Shown piece after piece: positions 31,861 through 37,250 of a stretch of 64,000 nt of DNA. Origin of the DNA: Arthrobacter sp. CDRTa11 (GTDB lineage Bacteria > Actinomycetota > Actinomycetes > Actinomycetales > Micrococcaceae). The stretch's first letter is position 1, and every line of letters starts with the position of its first letter. Where the stretch lies: contig NZ_CP044532.1 in NCBI RefSeq assembly GCF_026427775.1, positions 2,852,001-2,916,000 of the forward strand, in the 5' to 3' direction. Both the position numbers and the translations under genes were made by a program. The notes beneath the pieces are model-generated. The model did not search any database. It saw only the letters and a list, made by a program, of their open reading frames with translations, and had not been told where the DNA came from.

Positions 31861-32646
31861 GTGGACCTTCTCAGCAGTACCTTTGTGACCTTCGCCGGCC
31901 TCTGGGCAGGCACCATCAACGCCGTCGTAGGGTCCGGCACCCTGGTGACCTTCCCGGTGCTGATCGCCCTCGGCGTCACTCCCGTTGTGGCATCCATGAG
32001 CAACGCCATGGGCCTGGTGGCCGGCACCGCCGCCGGCGCGTGGGGCTACCGCCGTGAACTCACGGGCCGCGGCAGGCAACTGCTCAGGCTGCTGCCGGCC
32101 TCGTTGCTGGGAGGGATCTCCGGAGCCTGGCTGCTCCTCCACCTCCCGGAGAGGGTCTTCCACTTCGTGGCCCCTGTGCTGCTGGTCATGGCCCTTCTTA
32201 TGGTCCTTTTCCAGCCGCGGCTGCAGTCCTGGGTGCTCAACCGCGAGGTGAATCCTGAGCATGCCATTCGGGACAAGCGCCATGGGTTTCTCCTGGTGGT
32301 GCTGGTCTACCTCGCCGGCGTATATGGCGGGTATTTTGTCGCGGCCCAGGGAATCCTGCTGGTTGGCATCCTGGGGATATTCCTGACCGGAACCATCCAG
32401 AACGCCAACGCCATGAAGAACATCCTGGTTCTGGGCGTGAACTTCGTCGCGGCCGTCTCCTACCTGCTGTTCGCCTTTGACCGGATCAACTGGCTGGTGG
32501 TGCTCCTGATCGCCGTCAGCTCCACGGTGGGGGGACTCCTGGGCTCGAGGGTCGGCAGGCGCCTGTCGCCCGCCGTGCTGCGGGGGATTATCTTCGCGCT
32601 CGGCCTGATGGCGCTGGGCTTTATGATTGCCAATCTGCTGAAATAA
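31861..32646 (+). CDS. TSUP family membrane permease (TauE/SafE)
   Basis: Putative anion or organosulfonate exporter of 261 residues with about eight hydrophobic segments. The family shows in FAGLWAGTINAVVGSGTLVT near residue 10 and its second-half repeat YLAGVYGGYFVAAQGILLV near residue 150. The start is GTG 31861. It lies eight bases before the trmH gene. Confidence 0.9.
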   Translation: MDLLSSTFVTFAGLWAGTINAVVGSGTLVTFPVLIALGVTPVVASMSNAMGLVAGTAAGAWGYRRELTGRGRQLLRLLPASLLGGISGAWLLLHLPERVFHFVAPVLLVMALLMVLFQPRLQSWVLNREVNPEHAIRDKRHGFLLVVLVYLAGVYGGYFVAAQGILLVGILGIFLTGTIQNANAMKNILVLGVNFVAAVSYLLFAFDRINWLVVLLIAVSSTVGGLLGSRVGRRLSPAVLRGIIFALGLMALGFMIANLLK

Positions 32647-32653
32647 TCAACCG

Positions 32654-33544
32654 GTGACAATCCACTACCTTGAGTCCGCCGGGGATCCCCGTGTCTCGGA
32701 CTACACACAGCTGACGGATGTGCACCTGCGAAAACTACGCGAGCCCGCCGAGGGTATGTACATAGCGGAGTCCTCCCGCGTGCTGCGCCGGGCACTGGCG
32801 GCGGGCCACACGCCGCGTTCCTTTTTCCTCGCGGAGAAGTGGCTTGATGACCTGCAGGACATCCTCGGCTCCTATCCGGACGTCCCGGCTTTCATCGGCA
32901 GTGCGGCACTGCTGGAGGAAATCACCGGCTTCCACCTGCACCGCGGCGCCATGGCGGCGATGCAGCGCCCGGCGCCCGTCCCGCTTGCGGAACTGCTCGC
33001 AGGCGCGCGGCGGGTGGCAGTCCTGGAGGACATTGTGGACCACACCAACGTCGGGTGTTCCAAAATGTCGGGCGTCGATCCTGAGAGACGAGGGCGTTCG
33101 AGGATCGCAGTGCTTGAAAATCTGACTGATCATACAAACGTAGGCGCGGTTTTTCGCAGCGCCGCGGCGATCGGCGTCGATGCCGTGCTGGTGACGCCGC
33201 AGTGCGCCGACCCCCTTTACCGCCGCTCGATCCGAGTGTCCATGGGCACGGTGTTCCAGGTGCCGTGGACGCGGATCGAGTCATGGCCCGAGGACGTCGG
33301 GCTGCTGAAGGAGGCTGGCTATGTCTTGGCGGGGATGACGCTGGGGGAGGGGGCGATCACGCTGGACGAGCTGGTCGCCGAGGACCATGAGAACCTAGCG
33401 CTGGTCTTCGGTACTGAGGGGGAGGGGCTTACCCCGGAGACGGATCGGGTGCTCGACCGGCGGGTCACCATCCCGATGATGAACGGCGTGGACTCTCTCA
33501 ATGTCGCTGCCTCGTCGGCCGTCGCTTTCTATGCGACGCGGTAG
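32654..33544 (+). CDS. Hybrid TrmH/SpoU RNA 2'-O-methyltransferase made at an insertion junction
   Basis: SAM-dependent ribose methyltransferase for tRNA or rRNA. Residues 1-134 are the native substrate-binding domain up to DHTNVG. Residues 135-149 are a linker with no family match. From residue 150 a second motif copy (RIAVLENLTDHTNVG) leads into a complete SPOUT domain, with AVFRSAAA near residue 165, LALVFGTEGEGL near residue 252 and [13 protein letters not shown] near residue 275. The protein is 296 residues, about 30 longer than expected. All three SpoU motifs are intact, so activity is plausible. The displaced native 3' half lies at 36437-36850. Start is GTG 32654, eight bases after the TSUP gene. 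Confidence 0.88.
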   Translation: MTIHYLESAGDPRVSDYTQLTDVHLRKLREPAEGMYIAESSRVLRRALAAGHTPRSFFLAEKWLDDLQDILGSYPDVPAFIGSAALLEEITGFHLHRGAMAAMQRPAPVPLAELLAGARRVAVLEDIVDHTNVGCSKMSGVDPERRGRSRIAVLENLTDHTNVGAVFRSAAAIGVDAVLVTPQCADPLYRRSIRVSMGTVFQVPWTRIESWPEDVGLLKEAGYVLAGMTLGEGAITLDELVAEDHENLALVFGTEGEGLTPETDRVLDRRVTIPMMNGVDSLNVAASSAVAFYATR

Positions 33545-34211
33545 TGGCTTGGCCGGAAGTCGCATGATTCGATTCGGTCACGACGTCTCGGCAACTGGAC
33601 CCACCTCACTGCGGTGTCTGGGGCGAACTATGAATCCACACATGGGTCTTGATTCTGTGGCTCTGGGCGGTGCGGTGCCAGGCCCCGGTGGCCCGGACTG
33701 GTACTCAGGCCATGACCGACATCCTGCTTGGGTTTGGCCACAGGGGCCGCCTGCTGTGCACCGCAGCGACGAGGACGCGTACCGCGTCGTGTGGACCGGC
33801 ACGATCGACGACGGCCGGACGTCGGGGACGTGAGACGACGACGACAACGGCTCCAATCGGACCGGCGACGACACGGGACCCGGAGCGATCCCGATCCGGG
33901 CAGACTCGATCGCGCTGGACTACATCTTCAGCTCCGGGGCGAAGACCCCGAATTCGTGCCCGTCGACGGCAACGAGGGCAAGGCCGTGGCAGCCCGGCCG
34001 GCCAATCCTTTCAAGCCACCCTTCCGGCTGACCCGCCAAAGCCACACCCGGCACCCCTGGGTGACGGCGAGCATACAAAGCCCACCAACCACACATCAAC
34101 AACGTGAGGATCCCGCCCCATCGGGCACGAAGCCGCAGCCGTCGGTCTCGTCTCGAGCCTGCAGCACAAGTCTCACCGCCCCTCAGCGATCGCCGGCCGC
34201 CGATGGCCGGG
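33545..34211. other. Tract without a supported gene inside the insertion
   Basis: Several short frames exist on both strands, but none keeps a domain, a good ribosome site or protein-like composition. Short stretches such as EDAYRVVWTGTIDDG (forward, about 33770-33815) and ADSIALDYIF (about 33900-33930) look protein-like yet fall in different frames. The tract may be a decayed gene. Confidence 0.5.
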
Positions 34212-35597
34212 TCACGCCGAGGCGATGAGCCGGGGGAGGTTGGAGAGCGCTCCGGCGGCATGGGCTCGGCTGCGCCCGCGAGCCTCGGGGAGGCGTGGGT
34301 CGTCGGCGTAACGCTCCAGCTCGGCGAAAGGATACAGTCGGCTCGTGCGCGACCAAGCGGACACGGCCGGATGCTGGCCGCGAGCCCGGGCGTTCGCCAT
34401 CAGCGCGGCGTAGGAGATGAGGAAGTCGACATTCCGATCCCAGAGGTGCAGCGGGCGGCACAGCTCGTTCTTCTGGTCGTCGTCGTGGAGTTCGGCTTCG
34501 ACGACGCCAAGCATCGCGTACTGGAACGAGACGGTGCCCCAGAACATCGGCTGAAGCGTGATGCGGCCAGGCCCGAAGATCGGACGGAGTGGCGGCCGGA
34601 CGAGCCCCGACGCCGCGCAGTGGAGGTGCAGCGTGTCGCGTGTCGTGGGGATGATACCGTCGTCGAGGATGATGCGGTCGCGCTCGACAGTACGCACGTG
34701 ACCGAGGCGGACGACATCCTCGATTCGCCGGAGGAGGGCGATCTCGGCTTCTCCGACGATCGCGCCGTGGAACATTGTGGGTGGCACCGAGGGATCGACC
34801 CGCAGCAGGATTCCCTGTTCGTCGAGCCGTGCGAAGAGATCGTCAACCGTCGTCGCTTGGGCCATGGCCTCGATCTGCGCGGCGTTCGCGACGTACTGGT
34901 CGACGACAAGGTCGTGCGGCTGCAGGTAGCGTCGATTCGGCCACCATCCCTCACGCGGTTTGATCCACGTGACGTCGGCGGGATCCACACCCCGCTCGAG
35001 AAGCCACACACACGTGTCGAGGGCGGTCTTTCCCGCGCCGATCACCGTGAAGCGTCCGGCCGGGTGGGCGAGTCGGGCTAGCCCACCGGTGGGGATGCAG
35101 CGGACTCCCTCGGCCACAGCGAACGGCGGGGCGGAGGTGGCGGGGATGCGGCCCTCGAGGTACCTCGCATCCACCACGCGGCGGCGCACGGTGACGGGCA
35201 CGGTGCGGCCGTCCAGACGGGAGACGATCCGACCCTCGTCAACGAACTCGCACTCGGGCAGGTAGACTACACGACCGGTCGGCAGGAAGACCCGCGTCAT
35301 CGCCTCTTCGAAGTGCGCGCAGATCTCGCTCGGGCCGGCCAGCTCGTACATGCCTGCGTTCGTGCCGCTGACGTCGCGCCTGTCGGCTCCGAATGGCACG
35401 GATTCGACGCCGTAGAGGTTCGCGGGCTGGTGCAGCCGAACGAACGGATATGCGTCCTGCCAGTGTCCCCCGGGCGCGTGCCGGCGATCGACGATCGCGA
35501 CCGTGGCATCCGAATGCGCGAGGATCCGGTCGGTGAAGACCATCCCCGCTGTCCCAGCGCCGACCACCAGATAGTCGGCTTCGATGCGCCCTCGCAC
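34212..35597 (-). CDS. FAD/NAD(P)-binding monooxygenase-like flavoprotein
   Basis: Cargo gene of the insertion, 461 residues and apparently intact. The N-terminal FAD fold has VVGAGTAGM near residue 12 followed by APGGHWQDAYPFVRLHQPAN near residue 41, a pattern seen in flavin-containing monooxygenases. A second dinucleotide motif, VIGAGKTALDTCVWLLE, lies near residue 185. No membrane segments. GTG 35597 is the first start giving a full Rossmann strand. Two nested inverted repeats sit 55-90 bases upstream. The substrate cannot be inferred. Confidence 0.85.
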   Translation of the reverse strand: MRGRIEADYLVVGAGTAGMVFTDRILAHSDATVAIVDRRHAPGGHWQDAYPFVRLHQPANLYGVESVPFGADRRDVSGTNAGMYELAGPSEICAHFEEAMTRVFLPTGRVVYLPECEFVDEGRIVSRLDGRTVPVTVRRRVVDARYLEGRIPATSAPPFAVAEGVRCIPTGGLARLAHPAGRFTVIGAGKTALDTCVWLLERGVDPADVTWIKPREGWWPNRRYLQPHDLVVDQYVANAAQIEAMAQATTVDDLFARLDEQGILLRVDPSVPPTMFHGAIVGEAEIALLRRIEDVVRLGHVRTVERDRIILDDGIIPTTRDTLHLHCAASGLVRPPLRPIFGPGRITLQPMFWGTVSFQYAMLGVVEAELHDDDQKNELCRPLHLWDRNVDFLISYAALMANARARGQHPAVSAWSRTSRLYPFAELERYADDPRLPEARGRSRAHAAGALSNLPRLIASA

Positions 35598-35652
35598 GCA
35601 CTCATAGTAGCCTTGGCCGGCTGCGCGGGGAATCCTCCGGTGCGCAGGTACA

Positions 35653-35686
35653 GTCGGGCGGCCGCCCGACCGGTTATCGCCCGGTC
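35653..35686 (-). promoter_or_regulatory. Nested inverted repeats upstream of the flavoprotein gene
   Basis: GTCGGGCGGCCGCCCGAC at 35653-35670 is a perfect 18-base palindrome. Overlapping its end, GACCGG (35668-35673) pairs with CCGGTC (35681-35686) across seven bases. They could be an operator, a hairpin, or a recombination site of the element. Confidence 0.45.
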
Positions 35687-35875
35687 TGCGCCTGACCTAC
35701 GGGCGGAAGAGCTGCTCGAACGTGCCCGACTTCGTCGGCGAGAAGGTGTTTGCGAGGCACTCGAGGTGCCAGGTCGCGCCGGACTGGCCTTCAGCCGACT
35801 TCCTCATCCACATGACCCCATCGTCACCATCGTTTTCGCGGTCTTCGTGCTCTACACCCAGATGCTGTTCCGCGC

Positions 35876-36257
35876 CTAAGGGCGGTACACCCACGGCCCG
35901 ACAGGAGCCTGGACCGTCTCCGGCACGGCCAGCAGGAGCAGCGCCCCGATGACGAGGAGGAGCGCGAACACGAAATAGGGGGTGAACAGTGGCGAGGGAA
36001 CGTACTCGGCCAGGACTCCGCTTGCCAGCGGCCCCAGGCCGAGGCCGCCGATGTCGGCCGCAGTCGAGACCACTTCGGCGCGGCGAGGTCCCCAGCGCGG
36101 TCGTGCCCGGCTGTAGAGCTCGGTGAGGTGCGCCGTAGCGGTTGCCGTCAGCATGCCAAATGCCGAGCCCACTCAGTAGTCGGACGACGAGGAGGGCGGG
36201 CAATGCGTGCCAGACCATGAAGGCGGACGGCAGCGGAAACTCTGAGCGCACCCTCAT
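35876..36257 (-). pseudogene. MFS transporter remnant, 5'-truncated and frameshifted
   Basis: Two frames together encode the C-terminal part of a major facilitator. The first reads AFMVWHALPALLVVRLLSGLG; near 36160-36175 the match shifts frame to GSAFGMLTATATAHLTELYSR and then runs through AADIGGLGLGPLASGVLAEY and a last helix to the stop at 35876. About half of a normal 400-residue transporter is missing at the N-terminus. It lies upstream of the flavoprotein gene on the same strand and may once have shared its transcript. Confidence 0.7.
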
Positions 36258-36436
36258 CTATGGTGCGATCCATTGGCGACGGGAGTGACGTCCTGACGTG
36301 ATAGATGCCGCCCGCTGTCGAGATGTCCGCGGATACCGCGCCCGCGACAACTACCGACTCCACATTGCTGAATCTTCCTGACGGACTATCAGTAGCTGTA
36401 ATCATGTCTGGGGAGCATATTGCAGTACCTACTAGC

Positions 36437-36850
36437 GTGGGCGCCATTTTCCGGTCCGCCGCCGCTTTGGACATTGATGCGGTGCTTATTTCGCCGCGGT
36501 GCGGGGATCCGCTCTACCGCAGGAGCGTTCGGGTCAGCATGGGCACCGTCTTCCAGGTGCCGTGGGCACGGCTGGAAAGCTGGCCGCATGACCTGAACGT
36601 TCTCAGGGACGCCGGCTTCACGGTGGCCGCCATGGAATTAACACCCGACGCCGTGGACGTGGATGAACTCGCCGCGCGCAACCCGGCCCGGCTGGCCCTG
36701 GTGCTGGGCACCGAAGGCGCGGGCATGAGCGCGGAGACTCTCGCCGCCGTCGACCTCGCTGTCAAGATCCCCATGCGGGCAGGCGTTGACTCACTCAACG
36801 TGGCCGCAGCCTCTGCCGTGGCCTTTTGGGAGCTACGGACCCGGCAGTAG
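36437..36850 (+). pseudogene. Displaced native 3' half of trmH/SpoU
   Basis: From VGAIFRSAAALDIDAVLISP to the stop the frame encodes a full SPOUT catalytic domain, with GTVFQVPWARLESW, LALVLGTEGAGM and [13 protein letters not shown]. It is similar throughout to the catalytic half of the hybrid gene at 32654 but clearly a different sequence. It has lost the substrate-binding domain. The frame is open back to an ATG at 36305, so a 181-residue fusion could in theory be made, but the added 44 residues are unlike any TrmH. Confidence 0.85.
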
Positions 36851-36992: not shown

Positions 36993-37250
36993 ATGAAGTC
37001 TGATATCCACCCGAAGTACGAAGCTGTTGTTTTCAACGACCTGGCTTCCGGCGTCAAGTTCCTGACCAAGTCCACCGTGTCTTCCAAGAAGACCATCGAG
37101 TGGGAAGACGGTAACACCTACCCGGTCATCGACGTCGAAATCTCCTCCGAGTCCCACCCGTTCTACACGGGTAAGCAGCGCATCATGGACTCTGCAGGCC
37201 GCGTCGAGCGCTTCAACGCTCGCTTCAAGGGCTTCGGCGGCAAGAAGTAA
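36993..37250 (+). CDS. rpmE2: Ribosomal protein L31 type B
   Basis: Large-subunit ribosomal protein of 85 residues beginning [16 protein letters not shown] and ending RFKGFGGKK. It has no cysteines, so it is the zinc-independent type B paralogue that in many bacteria replaces zinc-binding L31 under zinc limitation. AAAGG lies eight bases before the ATG. I did not find a clear Zur-type operator upstream, so zinc control is not supported by what I can see. Confidence 0.96.

Follow-up and report, generated by a model that had tools for sequence, protein, structure and literature searches.

A probable trmH-targeting integrative element that supplies a foreign SPOUT catalytic domain in Arthrobacter sp. 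CDRTa11

Site-specific integration into translation-related genes, with the gene product kept, is familiar from SCCmec in rlmH and SXT in prfC, where only a terminal stretch, and no catalytic domain, is known to be restored or replaced. Prophage e14 of E. coli K-12 is described as inserting after codon 362 of icd and restoring the C-terminal coding part of the gene in frame (PMC11148124). A prophage site of M. abscessus, attB-29, lies in a SpoU-like methyltransferase gene and is joined at the sixth codon; the authors leave undecided whether the join restores expression (PMC10654092). Here, we analyzed a 64,000-nt stretch of Arthrobacter sp. CDRTa11 (contig NZ_CP044532.1, positions 2,852,001 to 2,916,000; hereafter the window), in which trmH is split by a 3.4 kb insert that brings a complete foreign SPOUT catalytic domain in frame. 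We consider it quite likely that it belongs with actinobacterial integrative elements whose target is the catalytic motif N-V/I-G-A of trmH, either as a remnant that has no integrase or as a cassette moved in trans.

The trmH gene of the window is cut at codon 133, within the conserved N-V-G motif. Its native frame ends with ...VLEDIVDHTNV, the GTC codon of V133 occupying 33050-33052, and the frame stays open across GCSKMSGVDPERRGR and from S149-RIAVLENLTDHTNVGAVFRS... onward until it closes at 33544. The resulting open reading frame (ORF) of 296 amino acids (aa) has a single SpoU_methylase match (PF00588, residues 151-293, E=3.2e-34). Beyond the insert, the native 3' half restarts at a GTG at 36437 (VGAIFRSAAALD) and stops at 36850, leaving it orphaned. 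The initial annotation had read the native gene up to DHTNVG at 33055 and again from 36437, and these coordinates needed no correction. It had also described an in-frame, stop-free insert with a second complete SPOUT domain of a different lineage, which agrees with the hybrid ORF and with the amino acid identity of 61% between the inserted SPOUT and the native 3' half; at this identity, the inserted domain represents another lineage rather than a copy of the host's own. Besides this domain, the insert leaves a duplicated strand and a translated attachment (att) half-site that serves as a linker. The features of the locus are as follows.

31861..32646, + strand: upstream neighbour, membrane-transporter-like gene, 261 aa (named by eye)
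32654..33544, + strand: hybrid trmH, 296 aa, one open frame over the left junction
32654..33049, + strand: native N-terminal half, residues 1-132, ending ...DHTN
33050..33097, + strand: att half-site at the element's left end, read as the linker VGCSKMSGVDPERRGR (residues 133-148; similar in L034, L036 and L055)
33098..33541, + strand: complete foreign SPOUT domain borne by the element, residues 149-296
34212..35597, - strand: cargo, FAD/NAD(P)-binding oxidoreductase gene, 461 aa (NAD_binding_8, E=1.9e-5)
35697..36257, - strand: open frames resembling a broken transporter gene (by eye)
36413..36438, + strand: conserved att half-site at the element's right end, GAGCATATTGCAGTACCTACTAGCGT
36437..36850, + strand: orphaned native trmH 3' half, from the V codon of N-V-G
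36993..37250, + strand: downstream neighbour, ribosomal protein L31 gene, which we take to be rpmE2-like; it adjoins trmH directly at empty sites

The other trmH loci read, hybrid as well as native, have the same transporter-like gene on their upstream side. A Pfam search of two frames in the broken-transporter region (35876-36172 and 36148-36474) gave no match.

Comparison of filled and empty sites was based on the distance from the trmH stop to the motif at the rpmE2 start. Of the 15 native loci that could be measured, 14 show 132-212 bp and L101 shows 853 bp, L105 and L108 not being measurable. Of 15 measurable hybrid rows (14 genomes, as L043 and L051 come from the same one), 14 show 1.4-13.9 kb and L196 shows 287 bp; six further hybrid rows could not be measured. 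Given the narrow range of the native loci, the 3463 bp in the window are not a matter of chance. Within Arthrobacter bambusae, strain DP-A9 is empty (155 bp) and strain DS999 is filled (8483 bp), so that relatives with an empty site, which had been proposed as a check, are present even within one species. A search for interrupted trmH genes had likewise been proposed, and a mobile SPOUT was detected in 22 of 206 genus genomes (E<=1e-70; own genome included); in 20 of these, it forms a single open frame together with an N-half. Among the rows compared, L037/L049 and L043/L051 each represent the same genome entered twice, and L055 comprises two or three units. Similar trmH hybrids were also found in Kocuria, Leucobacter, and Streptomyces. 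The trmH gene of Leucobacter sp. wl10 (L057:9560-10453) has the same type of join, with a duplicated strand, the linker EGSKKSVETIFESLR, and the start of a second SPOUT. A SPOUT match on a Pusillibacter plasmid was set aside, being no hybrid by annotation.

The two halves of the hybrid gene gave different pictures in trees, which were quick trees built from few columns. The C-half tree (76 rows) has a branch with support 89 that sets the 24 mobile rows from Arthrobacter and Sinomonas to one side, and a wider starred set, apart from natives, adds five SPOUTs (Leucobacter, Brachybacterium, Kocuria soli, Demequina, and Microbacterium). The window SPOUT shares 99% identity with that of Sinomonas sp. 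R1AF57. In the N-half tree (70 rows), mobile and native N-halves are interspersed: 12 changes of the mobile label are needed, three or more of them forced by starred branches, versus 17.7 on average for shuffled labels, and the label is therefore partly clustered. L061 was missed by the motif search and is in neither tree, and L035, L041, L045, and L047 were left out (L048 represents L035).

Further examination of the element ends revealed that eight right ends (the window, Hiyo4, two of P. siccitolerans, Sinomonas mesophila, G013, G105, and Kocuria soli) are similar over the last 24 bases, with a mean pairwise identity of 0.65 as compared with 0.23-0.27 further upstream; those of G105 and the second P. 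siccitolerans copy are not independent, because they were retrieved by the right-end pattern. The left ends start at the same codon, and the ends and the native site share about AANGT. Conserved left and right ends with few bases in common correspond to the attL and attR of large serine integrase elements. The right-end pattern had 7 matches in 6 of the 206 genomes, its reversed control having at least 11 among the matches listed; five of the seven were kept, those followed by trmH or a mobile SPOUT half. Tandem copies occur in Pseudarthrobacter and Sinomonas: P. siccitolerans has two elements in a row with the native half behind the second, and Sinomonas mesophila has three consecutive SPOUT copies. 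Element size ranges from about 2 kb (SPOUT and FAD gene) to 19.6 kb (G065), and the G105 element would reach at least 35 kb if its two contigs, whose order is deduced, adjoin.

As for cargo, copies of the FAD oxidoreductase gene with 94-98% identity were found in six other elements. Near-identical copies also lie away from a trmH hybrid, at three places in G512 and one in G440, and another sits beside a plain trmH in G145 (together L208, L209, L217, L219, and L211). The FAD gene was thus rejected as a core part of the element, and is itself mobile. A second relative, 43% identical, is present elsewhere in the CDRTa11 genome (G000:C1:2265251-2266618). Other cargo includes genes that look catabolic by eye; that of P. 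siccitolerans also comprises SLFN-AlbA and ApeA-like proteins.

Relatives that carry an integrase were identified on the Streptomyces side. In Streptomyces phages Sitrop and Kamino, a serine integrase, a dyad-flanked core (attP) with GTGGGCGC, and a SPOUT half all adjoin one another. Only 0 and 4 of 500 shuffles, respectively, made as good a dyad, and 106 and 739 of 1000 did when the compared region was cut differently. Among 41 phage records with an integrase at least 60% identical to that of Kamino, 3 (Kamino, and Sitrop twice) have a SPOUT match, and no other Streptomyces phage record searched had one. Phage phiScoe45, whose integrase shares 98.3% identity with that of Kamino, has no SPOUT match. 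Three IMG/VR phages (L130, L131, and L132; integrase identities of 79, 76, and 67%) contain the same core and no SPOUT. Since so few of the related phages have it, the SPOUT half is an accessory gained or lost beside attP. In L130-L132, where integrase and att core stand without this half, lysogeny might disrupt trmH.

An integrated copy with its own integrase was found in L280 (IMG/VR contig 3300049165_000206, 6697 bp), which contains, in order, a Streptomyces-like trmH N-half, the linker MFGLDLQDPAGQ, a SPOUT, an ORF with no Pfam match, a transposase-like ORF, a serine integrase at the right junction, and a native-type 3' half. This integrase (PF00239, E=5e-30; PF07508, E=5.1e-9) is 55% identical to that of Kamino, and the ends of L280 form a dyad that matches at 17 of 22 positions, a score reached by 0 of 1000 shuffles. 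In L281 (IMG/VR contig 2765236019, 75 kb, a record with no N-half), a trmH 3' half starting with TNIGA, which may be the host's or the phage's, lies beside a second serine integrase (L281:8191-9939, 582 aa) distant from that of Kamino. Both PF00239 and PF07508 are present in the L280, Kamino, and L281 integrases. We infer that the trmH motif is the target of the Sitrop and Kamino integrases.

Matches to the Kamino SPOUT (E<=1e-50) were obtained in 34 of 295 Streptomyces genomes, natives among them. Clear hybrids with the duplication are L221, L222, and L228; L237, L244, and L245 are degraded hybrids, and L243 and L250 look native. The linker of L228, MLPLGLQERAGQ, resembles FSQFGLQRVAGQ, which is encoded by the Kamino attP half-site. 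In G1064, an element of about 12 kb contains genes of CRISPR-Cas type I-E (Cas3, Cse1, Cas5, and Cas2) followed by the native 3' half; this CRISPR-Cas locus lies within the Streptomyces trmH site (L257:1503-12954).

The sequences themselves show the junctions, the open frame, the foreign lineage, the empty sites, the recurrence, and the tandem copies, together with a serine integrase beside the junction in the Streptomyces-type relatives, and they favour the following mechanism. A large serine integrase would join a short attP to the N-V/I-G-A motif of trmH. Next to attP, the element would hold a complete SPOUT domain that lacks an N-terminal domain, and in the integrated state the host N-half would be read through the att half-site, now a linker, into the element's SPOUT, giving a full-length methyltransferase. 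The native 3' half would be left orphaned and then decay, and later trimming of the duplicated strand and the linker could make the domain replacement permanent. The original proposal of a trmH-targeting element with a replacement catalytic half is supported by the empty sites, the orphaned halves or remnants in 10 of 22 hybrids, and L280.

Several observations weigh against this reading. The G029 hybrid has an internal stop, and the N-half of G131 appears frameshifted. No native remnant was found for 12 of the 22 hybrids in the stretch read. In the Arthrobacter-group ends, the inverted half-sites of an attP of about 50 bp gave a mixed picture: 3 of 1000 shuffles made as good a dyad at one tandem joint, and at another joint and in a composite 393 and 224 of 1000 did; a separate run gave 345 and 60 of 500. 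Arthrobacter-group and L281-like joins fall on the V codon, those of L280 and the Streptomyces hybrids one to three codons later, so that the joins of the two groups are not at the same dinucleotide. The integrases of the two groups therefore probably differ, and the same motif was probably reached by different integrases. On the C-half tree, the Streptomyces hybrids and the phage SPOUTs fall in separate places, and hence the phages seen are not direct donors. Lastly, reading of the Arthrobacter-group elements (about 2 to 19.6 kb) revealed no serine integrase, and close relatives of the Kamino or L281 integrase were not found beside trmH in this group.

Additional searches for a recombinase in the Arthrobacter group led to similar results. 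Fifteen of the 22 hybrid genomes, the own one among them, were screened for PF07508 and PF00589. PF07508 had no match in the own genome, and the window element thus lacks the PF00239 and PF07508 pair of large serine recombinases. A local serine-integrase profile built from Kamino-like proteins had no match in the open frames of the window, L001-L126, and L164-L205. The Kamino integrase has matches in 124 of 395 family genomes, and among the matches listed, 30 loci, none had a trmH inside the short flanks; across 396 phylum genomes, 1 genome matched at E<=1e-60. No att-like motif was present in twenty regions around serine recombinases of hybrid-bearing genomes, and neither attP patterns nor a first SPOUT query had matches in viral contigs. 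No tyrosine integrase was detected near trmH in the 15 genomes except within the G105 island, where contig C44 (L204:1461-4726) has three adjacent tyrosine recombinase genes, presumably RIT-like, and a transposase-like gene at one end. These recombinases were not adopted as the element's integrase, being about 27 kb off the right junction.

Because no serine integrase was found in the Arthrobacter-group elements read, the window element is either a remnant or was moved in trans; a serine integrase presumably moved it. The second case is a credible, though less probable, alternative in its own right: the Arthrobacter-group elements may be non-autonomous cassettes, made up of att half-sites, SPOUT, and cargo and as small as about 2 kb, that never had an integrase and were moved, somewhat as integron cassettes are, by one from another element or from a phage. 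Such cassettes are favoured by L039, L041, and L187, small elements whose sole genes are SPOUT and the FAD gene, by the failure to find a serine integrase in the elements read over the whole size range, and by tandem accumulation. Deletion after integration accounts for the same facts, however; an integrase is present in the phage and L280 relatives, and no helper was recognized in the twenty recombinase regions. The data fit both decayed autonomous elements and cassettes moved in trans. The word remnant in the initial annotation is compatible with an own genome devoid of PF07508 matches, and movement in trans also fits; of the larger relatives with a recombinase at the junction that it proposed to look for, L280 is one, and none was found among the Arthrobacter-group elements read.

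The preferred reading, site-specific integration at the trmH motif, was also weighed against a domain swap in which ordinary recombination, homologous or illegitimate, would have drawn on foreign trmH DNA; this appears improbable. Such a swap would suit the seven trimmed hybrids (G116, G050, G042, G131, G090, G491, and G440), which are seamless or nearly so and show no att-like duplication. P0083 is fully seamless. The duplicated strand and linker, retained in 15 of 22 hybrids (visibly degraded in G482, G503, and G512), would not result from homologous exchange. Neither would the shared motif at the joins, the conserved element ends, or the native 3' half, orphaned or as a remnant, in 10 hybrids (G000, G029, G070, G013, G127, G125, G105, G065, G510, and weakly G482). 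All 10 remnants fall among the 15 duplication-keeping hybrids, with a chance probability of 0.0046, and the trimmed hybrids seem to be older forms. An uninterrupted hybrid gene with no remnant, which had been named as evidence against an element, does occur, but only as these trimmed forms or as hybrids that are remnant-free in the stretch read.

With regard to function, the hybrid SPOUTs have a median dN/dS of 0.050 (76 of 78 pairs used), although the median dS of 1.27 is near saturation, a further point on the opposing side. The value is 0.075 for native SPOUTs (45 pairs) and 0.083-0.106 for four orphaned halves against natives; the orphaned halves are therefore not yet clearly decayed. The inserted SPOUTs are under purifying selection. 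Modelling of the hybrid gave a mean pLDDT of 72.3 and a pTM of 0.73, with most of the SPOUT confident and residues 120-145 without confident structure, and SpoU methyltransferases were the best structural matches, in line with the PF00588 domain. It seems that the hybrid enzyme works and that methyltransferase function is preserved; for the original statement to that effect, the open frame stands as observed, and activity is suggested by selection and modelling. That the element is real and the hybrid a non-working enzyme, with trmH dispensable and the open frame incidental, is doubtful. A SpoU-like gene of M. abscessus is called non-essential (PMC10654092). Knockout of a SpoU-family gene in S. 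albidoflavus, not necessarily orthologous to the window trmH, leaves the strain viable and growing normally, but two tRNAs then lack their ribose methylation at position 32 (PMC12772374). A dispensable, non-working hybrid would not readily explain an open frame in 20 of 22 genomes, or a SPOUT so constrained while the duplicated strand and linker vary among hybrids.

Two old adjacent trmH genes, one lost in most strains, might be suspected from the two SPOUT halves in a row in the window and some relatives, but this can be dismissed, as the second copy has no N-domain and begins mid-motif, the native gap is short, the N- and C-half trees conflict, and the empty sites, above all the empty A. bambusae strain, contradict it, as they do the corresponding refuting case raised at the outset.

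These elements would offer a route by which mobile DNA repeatedly replaces the whole catalytic domain of a conserved RNA-modifying enzyme, and fresh, decaying, and seamless stages of the replacement can be compared. In two orders, defence genes occupy the cargo site at trmH: CRISPR-Cas I-E in Streptomyces, and an ApeA-like gene in the case of Pseudarthrobacter. A target site is predicted for the serine integrases of known phages, making phage-driven gene chimerism directly testable. A broader proposal, which we advance only tentatively, is that cross-genus mobile cassettes dock at a catalytic motif and repay the host with a whole catalytic domain, that at least two serine integrase lineages use this motif, and that the Arthrobacter-group cassettes, with no integrase of their own, stack in tandem and repeatedly make a chimeric methyltransferase whose catalytic domain is horizontally inherited.

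The elements described here are a recurrent kind, and neither an earlier description of them nor any trmH-targeting element with a replacement catalytic domain was found in the open-access literature. Sitrop and Kamino (PMC11536984 for Kamino) resemble them in having integrase, attP, and SPOUT half adjoining, but are whole temperate phages, whereas neither an integrase nor phage genes lie in the window element; TrmH is unmentioned in the text of the Kamino paper. The attB-29 case likewise involves a mobile element with the same gene family as its site, and differs in the join at the sixth codon. Integron gene cassettes are an analogy only. Like e14 in icd, the window element supplies the missing in-frame part of a housekeeping gene and leaves the native end on the other side. 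In contrast to e14, which supplies 54 near-native residues with two conservative changes (PMC11148124), it provides a whole catalytic domain that is 61% identical rather than near-identical to the native one, together with a duplicated strand and a linker.

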